This document shows positions 28,010 to 37,441 of a DNA stretch of 64,000 nucleotides, piece by piece. This DNA comes from Quadrisphaera sp. DSM 44207. Its GTDB lineage: Bacteria > Actinomycetota > Actinomycetes > Actinomycetales > Quadrisphaeraceae. Both the position numbers and the translations under genes were made by a program. Numbering within the stretch: position 1 is the stretch's first letter; each line of letters begins with the position of its first letter. Under the pieces are notes generated by a model, which was not told the DNA's origin, ran no database searches, and saw only the letters and a list, made by a program, of their open reading frames with translations. Where the stretch lies: the NCBI RefSeq assembly GCF_900101335.1, contig NZ_FNKA01000001.1, forward strand, positions 682,001-746,000. Reading direction: 5' to 3'.

Positions 28010-28049
28010 GGGAGGCTCCTCGGGCGTGGTGGTGCGCTGACGGCGGCGA

Positions 28050-28134
28050 CGCTGGGCCCAGGCGGACGACCCGCGGTCGGTGCTCGTGCGCCGCTCCCCG
28101 GTGGTTGCCCACCTCACGCCAGTCGCGACGCGGG
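28050..28134 (-). promoter_or_regulatory. ZTP (pfl) riboswitch upstream of glyA
   Basis: On the minus strand, the conserved pfl/ZTP aptamer blocks occur in order: GCGACTGGCG (about 28128-28119), GTGGGCAACCACCGGGGAGC (about 28111-28092), a variable hairpin, then CCGCCTGGGC (about 28064-28055). This riboswitch binds ZMP/ZTP, which accumulate when 10-formyl-THF is short, and is known in front of glyA, folD and purH genes. The glyA start is about 40 nt downstream, and the glyA Shine-Dalgarno region would be the expression platform. There is no obvious terminator, so translational control is likely. Confidence 0.88.
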
Positions 28135-28139
28135 ACAGC

Positions 28140-35364: not shown

Positions 35365-35413
35365 GCGGCGGCGGGGCGCCTCCTGGACTCCCCGGGAGGC
35401 GCCCCGCCGCCGC
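35365..35413 (-). terminator. Strong terminator hairpin after the LLM monooxygenase gene
   Basis: Arms of 19 bp (35365-35383 and 35395-35413) pair perfectly around an 11-nt loop. It lies 13 bp downstream of the monooxygenase stop codon on the minus strand. Confidence 0.8.
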
Positions 35414-35426
35414 ACGTCGGGCGGCC

Positions 35427-36881
35427 TCAGGAGGCGCCCAGCGCCACCTCCGCGGCGGCCGCGTCCGTGATCTTCGACGGGCGCTGGCCGTCGAGGGCGC
35501 TCGGGGCGTTCGCGAAGGCCCCGTGGTAGCGGCGGGCGGGGTGGGTGTCCTCGGCGAAGACCTGCCCCGGGCCGTAGAGGTTCTCGCGCAGGGTGCGCCC
35601 CTCGTACTCGGTGCGGGCGCGGCCGCGGCGCTGCAGCTCGGGGACGACGAGCTCGACCAGGTCGACGAACGTGCCGGGGGTGATGGCGTAGGCGAAGTTG
35701 AAGCCGTCGATGCCGCCCTCGTCCACCCACCGCTCCAGCTCGTCGGCGACGGTCCGCGGAGAGCCGACGATGACCGGGCCCATGCCGCCGACGCTGCGCT
35801 GCTCGATGATGTCGCGCGGCGTCCAGCGGCGCTCCGGGTCGATGTTGGCCAGCGAGGCCAGCACCGAGCGCAGGCTGTCGTTCTCGACCTCGACGAGCGG
35901 GGTGTCGGGGTCGTACTGGGAGAAGTCGATGCCGGTCCAGCCGCCGTACAGGGCCATCATCCCCTCCGCCGAGGCGTAGGAGAGGTACTCGGCGTGCTTG
36001 GCGCGCGCCGCCTCGTCGGTCTCGGCGGTGATGACGGTGACGAGGGCGAAGATCTTCACCGAGTCGCGGGAGCGGCCGCCCGCCTCGGCGCGGTCGCGCA
36101 CGTCGTCGCTCGTGGCGCGCGCCTGCGCGATGGTGGCCGGGCTGATGAAGACGCCCTCGCCGTGCTTGGCCGCGAACGCCCGCCCCCGCGGCGACGCCCC
36201 GGCCTGGAAGATCACCGGGGTGCGCTGCGGGCTCGGCTCGGTCAGGTGGATGCCGGGGACGGAGTAGTGCTCCCCGCGGTGGCCGATCGGGTGCACCTTG
36301 GCGGGGTCGGTGTAGACGCCGCGCTCCTTGTCGCGCAGGACGGCGCCGTCCTCCCACGAGCCTTCCCACAGCTTGTAGGTGACGTCGAGGAACTCGTCCG
36401 CGATGTCGTAGCGCGCGTCGTGGCTGATCTGCTGGGTGTAGCCGAGGTTGACCGCGGCGCTGTTGAGGTAGCTCGTGACCACGTTCCAGGCCACCCGGCC
36501 CTTGGTCAGGTGGTCGAGGGTGGAGAACTTGCGGGCCAGCGCGTACGGCTGCTCGTAGGTCAGGGCGCTGGTGACCCCGAAGCCGAGGTGCTCGGTGACC
36601 ACGGCCATGGCCGGCACCTGGAAGAACGGGTCGTTGACGGGCACCTGCGCGGCGTCCACCAGGGACGGCGCGACGCTGTCGCGGTAGACGTCGTAGACGC
36701 CGACCACGTCGGCGATGAAGAGGGAGTCGAAGCGGCCGCGCTCGAGCAGGCGCGCCAGGTCGGTCCAGTACTCCAGGTCGTTGTAGCGCCACGCCTGGCT
36801 GTCGGGGTGGCGCCAGGTGCCCGCCGACTGGTGGGTGATGCAGGTCATGTCGAAGGCGTTCAGGATGATGCGCTGACCCAC
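35427..36881 (-). CDS. LLM-class flavin-dependent monooxygenase (NtaA/SnaA/DszA family)
   Basis: A 484-aa FMNH2-dependent monooxygenase of the nitrilotriacetate/DszA branch of the luciferase superfamily. Typical segments are LNAFDMTCITHQSAGTWRHP at the N-terminus, FFQVPAMAVVTEHLGFGVT, LDHLTKGRVAWNVVTSYLNSAA, and VIFQAGASPRGRAFAAKHGE. GTG 36881 has GGAGGACC a few bases upstream. The SAM-I riboswitch in its leader indicates that it is expressed when SAM/methionine is scarce, so the substrate is most likely an organosulfur compound (sulfone, sulfonate or thioether). No flavin reductase gene is adjacent, so reduced FMN must come from elsewhere. Confidence 0.9.
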   Translation of the reverse strand: MGQRIILNAFDMTCITHQSAGTWRHPDSQAWRYNDLEYWTDLARLLERGRFDSLFIADVVGVYDVYRDSVAPSLVDAAQVPVNDPFFQVPAMAVVTEHLGFGVTSALTYEQPYALARKFSTLDHLTKGRVAWNVVTSYLNSAAVNLGYTQQISHDARYDIADEFLDVTYKLWEGSWEDGAVLRDKERGVYTDPAKVHPIGHRGEHYSVPGIHLTEPSPQRTPVIFQAGASPRGRAFAAKHGEGVFISPATIAQARATSDDVRDRAEAGGRSRDSVKIFALVTVITAETDEAARAKHAEYLSYASAEGMMALYGGWTGIDFSQYDPDTPLVEVENDSLRSVLASLANIDPERRWTPRDIIEQRSVGGMGPVIVGSPRTVADELERWVDEGGIDGFNFAYAITPGTFVDLVELVVPELQRRGRARTEYEGRTLRENLYGPGQVFAEDTHPARRYHGAFANAPSALDGQRPSKITDAAAAEVALGAS

Positions 36882-36961
36882 GGGGGTCCTCCGGTCGAGT
36901 TCGGGCAGGCCGTGAGAACGGCGCGCTGGAGGGCGTGCTGGGCGGTGCTGAGGGCGGTGCG

Positions 36962-37064
36962 TTCCTCATCGGTCCTGGCGGGAGCACCGGCCCGCGCGCG
37001 AGGCGCGGAAGCGGTTGCTGCGGCGTCGACGAACCAGGTCTCTCGGCCGCTCTGGATGGGCAGG
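36962..37064 (-). promoter_or_regulatory. SAM-I (S-box) riboswitch in front of the LLM monooxygenase gene
   Basis: Read on the minus strand, conserved S-box elements occur in order: CATCCAGAG (37058-37050), GGCCGAGAGACCTGG, GACGCCGCAGCAACC (the GCAACC of the binding core), GGTGCTCCCGCCAGGACC, and the closing GATGAGGAAC (about 36970-36961), which pairs with the 5' CATC. SAM binding is known to lower expression of sulfur genes. No terminator follows, and the Shine-Dalgarno is about 70 nt downstream, so control may be translational. TTGACG at 37097-37092 with TTTGCT at 37074-37069 is a possible promoter. Confidence 0.88.
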
Positions 37065-37093
37065 CACAGCAAACCCGTCGCGGACGACGGGCG

Positions 37094-37441
37094 TCAAGCG
37101 CAGCCGGCGTCGCTGCTCGCCCCGCCGCCCCTGGCGGCGTCCACCAGCGCTCGCGCCTCGGGGCTGCGAGCGCACGCGGCCAGCTGCTCCAGCCGCTCCT
37201 CGGGGACCTCGCGCACCGCGCGGACGGCGTCCCACAGCTGGGTCGCCGTCTGCGCGAGGACGGTCCGGCCGGTGGCGCCCCCGACCGACCAGGCCGCCCC
37301 GGTGCTGGTCACGCGCGCCGGGTGCCCGGTCTCGCGCAGGAAGGCGTCGAGCACCCGGGCCGCCTGCCACCGGGCGCGGGCGCTGGACAGCTGCGGGGAC
37401 CAGGCGTCGCGCGCGACGGCGCGCCCGCACGCCCCGCACAC
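37094..37441 (-). CDS. Small hypothetical protein with N-terminal CxxC
   Basis: A 115-aa protein without a family I recognise. It begins with CGAC (Cys-x-x-Cys) directly after a GTG start, which could be half of a zinc ribbon or a redox site; there is a further Cys near residue 90 and one at the C-terminus. The rest is predicted helical, with an Arg/Ala-rich character (ARARWQAARVLDAFLRETGHP, then TATQLWDAVRAVREVPEE). It starts 24 bp after the SDR stop, so it is probably the last gene of the operon read from 42335. The SAM-riboswitch promoter overlaps its 3' end. Confidence 0.62.
   Translation of the reverse strand: MCGACGRAVARDAWSPQLSSARARWQAARVLDAFLRETGHPARVTSTGAAWSVGGATGRTVLAQTATQLWDAVRAVREVPEERLEQLAACARSPEARALVDAARGGGASSDAGCA

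Follow-up and report, generated by a model that had tools for sequence, protein, structure and literature searches.

A SAM-I (S-box) riboswitch aptamer and, behind it, a gene for a monooxygenase related to the dimethyl-sulfide (DMS) monooxygenase DmoA were found in the window, i.e. the whole 64,000-nucleotide stretch of DNA that was analysed. The RNA is of an ordinary kind. What appear to be new are its target and the recurrence of the arrangement, in which oxygenases of the DmoA type, and the reductase that probably serves them, belong time and again to SAM regulons. We consider it probable that SAM represses this dmoA-like gene through the aptamer, and that the encoded enzyme would cleave DMS or another thioether to methanethiol, from which MetY would form methionine. 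A wider reading is put forward with a little less than even confidence. Actinobacterial enzymes of the DMS-monooxygenase type may have entered the SAM regulon by repeated recruitment of SAM-I and SAM-IV switches, with a different class at the window gene and at its Cellulomonas counterparts. Oxygenase and reductase would be joined only by their matching riboswitches, the assimilation of volatile sulfur via methanethiol and MetY would be gated by SAM, and some related loci would carry a combined SAM-plus-cysteine gate.

Identification of the SAM-I aptamer

The aptamer lies at positions 36963-37062 of the minus strand, where RF00162 was aligned over its full length (model positions 1-108) with 44.0 bits and an E-value of 4.4e-9. 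The initial annotation had placed a SAM-I riboswitch at 36962-37064 of this strand, which was right to within one or two bases, and had named the S-box blocks CATCCAGAG, GCAGCAACC and GATGAGG, all of which are present there. It had also proposed a search with the RF00162 covariance model; the full-length match was obtained, though at 0.4 bits below the gathering score of 44.4, so that the window copy is absent from a default Rfam scan. As this absence reflects a shortfall of only 0.4 bits, it was not counted against the riboswitch. The same site was recovered in a whole-genome RF00162 search. In order to settle the question of the cut-off, a clade model (R3) was trained on 21 actinobacterial SAM-I sequences, all taken from genomes other than the host. 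With this model the window aptamer scored 81.9 bits (E 1.6e-20), and no other place in the window rose above 14.9 bits.

Covariation was assessed in an alignment (A1) of 32 actinobacterial copies, 31 of them distinct. Changes on both sides were observed in 11 base pairs, compared with 4.3 in shuffled alignments, and both the P2 stem and the pseudoknot covary. The pseudoknot is formed by CCTGG in the P2 loop (37034-37038) and CCAGG (36974-36978); it is paired in 100% of the relatives, with both-side changes in three of its five pairs. Wherever the relatives show no variation in the core or the pseudoknot, the window copy is intact as well. The plain folding energy of the aptamer was not unusual (z 0.15), which is evidence neither way and is to be expected of a G+C-rich sequence. 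The window RNA is thus an ordinary SAM-I aptamer of the actinobacterial type, as the two covariance models and the covarying helices of the relatives bear out. It shares with RF00162 the conserved core, P2/P3 and the pseudoknot, but is a G+C-rich form whose target gene is outside the classical S-box targets. Assignment to the SAM-IV or SAM-I/IV class was rejected, as no RF00634 or RF01725 match was present at the locus, and a match to HOTAIRM1_3 was attributed to chance.

Organisation of the locus and putative expression platform

As the initial annotation had claimed, the aptamer stands ahead of an NtaA-family monooxygenase gene. The gene (35427-36881) is on the same strand, with its GTG start codon at 36881, 81 nt past the aptamer. 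A Shine-Dalgarno (SD) sequence, GGAGG, is present at 36888-36892, 6 nt ahead of the GTG. A 16-bp G+C hairpin past the stop codon (35368-35410), which has no U tract, is from its sequence the likely transcript end. Directly upstream of the aptamer, a weak promoter candidate, TTGACG-18-TTTGCT (37068-37097), was seen by eye; a consensus promoter scan reported none, this candidate included. The stop codon of a 115-aa open reading frame (ORF; 37094-37441, minus strand), which has no Pfam or NCBIfam match, overlaps the TTGACG, a possible -35 element of the riboswitch transcript. Elsewhere in the window, a ZMP/ZTP riboswitch was detected at 28049-28136 of the minus strand (52.5 bits, gathering score 39), ahead of a glyA-like gene.

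P1 has the 3' strand GATGGAGG in most of the actinobacterial relatives, which puts the SD within the SAM-stabilised helix with the start codon immediately after it; this layout favours translational control in the group. The leader of the flavin reductase in the host genome is arranged in the same way. The window copy differs from this usual form, as its P1 reads GATGAGGA instead. The 5' strand CATC (37055-37058) pairs with GATG (36967-36970), which is followed by AGGA where GAGG is usual; the embedded SD is absent and that of the gene is farther downstream. The coupling would therefore have to run through the 81-nt leader (36882-36962), which on its sequence, a leader scan and a weak folding proxy is the putative expression platform. 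Between the aptamer and the gene, no terminator with a U tract was found in the sequence, and no leader-peptide ORF in the leader scan. When the aptamer fold was forced in the folding proxy, the accessibility of the SD became slightly lower, a weak shift. The window switch is most likely SAM-OFF, with SAM binding, the OFF direction and translational control all predicted.

The odd 3' strand of P1 and the 81-nt gap might also indicate a genuine aptamer whose coupling is poor or which is in decay, with the SD of P1 lost and expression of the gene now largely independent of SAM. The window copy has the lowest clade-model score of the four SAM-I copies in the host genome (81.9 bits versus 85.5-95.2 for the others), and the Cellulomonas orthologues are under SAM-IV instead. 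We regard such decay as quite unlikely, as the window copy has kept every core and pseudoknot position that the relatives hold invariant.

The monooxygenase is of the DmoA type

DmoA converts DMS, with FMNH2 and O2, to methanethiol and formaldehyde. The 484-aa window protein belongs to the NtaA/DmoA family of FMNH2-dependent monooxygenases (TIGR03860, 561 bits versus a cut-off of 280), and was the only enzyme of this type found in the host genome. Its best match among solved structures was DmoA of Hyphomicrobium sulfonivorans (PDB 6AK1; 718 bits, 63.9% identity over the whole length), followed by the alkane monooxygenase LadA (501 bits, 50.4%) and HcbA1 (369 bits, 40.5%). In a tree of 104 rows, the window protein and four proteins of Cellulomonas/Actinotalea formed a group (support 98), nested in a clade of 40 rows (SH-aLRT 100) to which DmoA 6AK1 itself belongs. 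Twenty-two binding sites were tabulated, namely the DmoA residue list in PMC9259527 plus C14 and L311. Twenty of these are the same as in DmoA, including Q18, Y138, A229 and L311, where LadA differs; the two departures are G231P and L367M. The window gene also differs from dmoA in its wiring: it lies behind a riboswitch, whereas no riboswitch was detected at the proteobacterial homologues, and its likely reductase is encoded away from it, under a second SAM-I switch.

Among candidate substrates, DMS or a small thioether like it comes first. The description in the initial annotation, a flavin monooxygenase of unknown substrate, was right about the monooxygenase and too modest about the substrate. 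Assignment by homology to DmoA is weak with regard to chemistry, because recombinant DmoAs reduced FMN with NADH and yet did not act on DMS (PMC9259527). Since the family takes in LadA and HcbA1, the protein could be a generic flavin monooxygenase that acts on an alkane, an aromatic compound or a xenobiotic and came under a SAM switch for reasons other than sulfur supply. This is very improbable, given that two SAM riboswitch classes were recruited independently, that the gene is co-regulated with sulfur genes and a flavin reductase, and that the residues at sites 18, 138, 229 and 311 are those of DmoA and not of LadA.

The SAM regulon of the host genome

Four SAM-I sites were found in the genome-wide RF00162 search: the window site, C3:101198 (53 bits), C1:288683 (44.1 bits) and C2:452758 (43.2 bits). 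Behind the other three sites are a flavin reductase (reductase-domain protein, PF01613), an ssuBAC-acs-metY operon and a cysteine-dioxygenase-like cupin. The operon consists of an ssuB-ssuA-ssuC-like transporter followed by an acetate-CoA ligase and an O-acetylhomoserine sulfhydrylase (MetY); both the SsuA_fam match (212 bits) and the sulfhydrylase match (592 bits) are above cut-off. The cupin, of about 140 aa (L007:6326-6853, minus strand), lies directly behind its SAM-I in this sulfur-scavenging regulon. Three SAM-IV sites (G000:C2:782455, C2:15319 and C2:645710; L154-L156) precede metY, metNIQ and metE, as judged by eye. In the host genome, SAM-IV (with targets assigned by eye) thus accompanies core methionine genes, and SAM-I accompanies organosulfur genes. 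The division does not hold generally, as Kocuria reverses the two classes for dmoA and acs-metY.

The host genome encodes ssuBAC behind SAM-I, but when its 11 luciferase-like (LLM) proteins (the window protein and ten others) were examined for SsuD or SfnG as alternative sulfur oxygenases, neither was found, so that the window enzyme might serve another substrate. With the riboswitch as proposed, the enzyme could stand in for SsuD as the partner of SsuBAC, cleaving sulfonates or sulfones and releasing sulfite rather than methanethiol; in some related operons a single SAM-I heads genes for an ABC transporter, the dmoA-like enzyme and a DszC/SfnB-like protein. This alternative is unlikely. The window protein reached 65 and 69 bits with the SsuD and SfnG equivalog models, far from the cut-offs of 518 and 383, and it is 64% identical to DmoA. 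Furthermore, the ssu operon contains metY, and in Kocuria acs-metY stands beside dmoA, both of which suit methanethiol or sulfide better than sulfite.

The route that we favour ends in methionine by way of methanethiol. When SAM is plentiful, the SAM-I switch would repress the monocistronic dmoA-like gene. At low SAM, and hence low methionine or sulfur, the monooxygenase would be made along with the flavin reductase, which is encoded separately under its own SAM-I switch. Together these two proteins would oxidatively cleave DMS, or a closely related small thioether, to methanethiol. MetY-type enzymes can use methanethiol, and the SAM-I-controlled MetY may fix it into methionine, while Acs would recycle the acetate. 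The likely reductase partner is thus named through the regulon and not through its neighbourhood, and the sensor would be a defined riboswitch. In Acinetobacter, one reductase serves several sulfur monooxygenases (PMC13352529).

The initial annotation had expected a sulfur-scavenging oxygenase rather than a generic LLM protein, and this expectation is supported. DmoA is the closest characterised enzyme, SAM-I control is shared with the flavin reductase and with ssuBAC-acs-metY, and SAM-I or SAM-IV precedes orthologues elsewhere. From the recurrent SAM-switch wiring of the enzyme and its likely reductase, the function is very probably sulfur scavenging that feeds methionine.

Recurrence in related genomes

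Orthologues of the flavin reductase (62-68% identity) were present in eight other sampled genomes, each about 30-200 nt behind a SAM-I aptamer; with the copy of the host genome, this applies to nine of nine close orthologues. Among the more distant reductases listed (≤41% identity), none was seen directly behind SAM-I. Genes similar to dmoA were found behind SAM-I in seven related genomes. In two of these (G011 and G012) the aptamer directly precedes the gene. In the other five (G001, G004, G007 and G009 of the same family, and G057 of the same order) it heads a run of an ABC transporter, the dmoA-like gene and a third gene with an acyl-CoA-dehydrogenase fold, whose resemblance to DszC/SfnB was judged by eye. 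An unusually high number of SAM-I sites for the sampled genomes, 13, was observed in G085, from family f14, which includes Kineococcus siccus.

SAM-IV was found directly before dmoA at 27 loci (three in Cellulomonas, 23 of Kocuria/Rothia type and one in G051), and in Actinotalea solisilvae it precedes a series of genes on its strand that begins with metN and ends with dmoA. In Kocuria palustris, acs-metY behind SAM-I diverges from the neighbouring dmoA, and many other Kocuria/Rothia loci have a comparably placed divergent SAM-I. In the divergent leaders of L102 (3582-3918), L045 and L046, SAM-I and SAM-IV aptamers stand back to back at a distance of about 100 nt; relative to dmoA, Kocuria and the family of the host genome have the two classes exchanged. 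The SAM-IV loci of Cellulomonas, Kocuria and Rothia have the same ligand class and an orthologous or homologous target as the window locus, but the riboswitch (RF00634) is of another class and no SAM-I is on the gene's strand there. For the window gene and its nearest Cellulomonas orthologues (81-84% identical), the class therefore differs at the same gene. On the 104-row tree, the SAM-IV label changes at least five times and the directly placed SAM-I label twice, which a single inherited event does not explain; several independent recruitments of SAM switches to dmoA-like genes would be needed on this tree.

An enzyme family to which SAM switches of two classes were recruited repeatedly offers a useful example of convergent regulation. 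The finding at the window locus also turns a generic LLM monooxygenase annotation into a testable role, the assimilation of DMS or small thioethers as a source of methionine sulfur in actinobacteria. Terrestrial DMS assimilation is an active question, and PMC13352529 describes a different route through DMSO, DMSO2 and sulfite. In Pelagibacter, SAM-V precedes metY, bhmT and mmuM (PMC5069961), similarly placing methionine formation from organosulfur compounds and methanethiol under SAM switches, but with another riboswitch class and without a DMS monooxygenase. In the literature consulted, no tie between DmoA and a riboswitch was found, nor any paper that combines SAM-IV with riboswitch and monooxygenase; key older papers may contain a prior mention. 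The main text of a riboswitch-regulon survey (PMC3766115) contains neither 'sulfonate' nor 'monooxygenase'.

Leader peptides at related loci

In many relatives, and likewise ahead of the ssuBAC genes of the host genome, a short leader ORF (e.g. MRCCVTVPLTRRVRVDLLRTASDLCRG), and not the enzyme gene, is served by the SD inside the P1 of SAM-I (loci L006:4784-4880, L152, L017, L018, L011 and L012; L148-L151). Compared with NF042934 ('putative leader peptide'), two of the short ORFs were above the cut-off and the others matched below it. The layout resembles a SAM riboswitch combined with attenuation by a cysteine leader peptide. A cysteine-containing leader peptide after the SAM switch suggests a combined SAM-plus-cysteine gate in several of the related loci, not in that of the window. 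The leader ORFs in the dmoA operons of G001, G004, G007 and G009 read MS(A/S/P)CMxxR. In the SAM-IV leaders of Cellulomonas and Actinotalea (L066:3817-3850, L067 and L068), tiny Cys-rich ORFs (MRMRCCHP, MRMRSCRD and MRMCCCRH) were observed before dmoA or metN.
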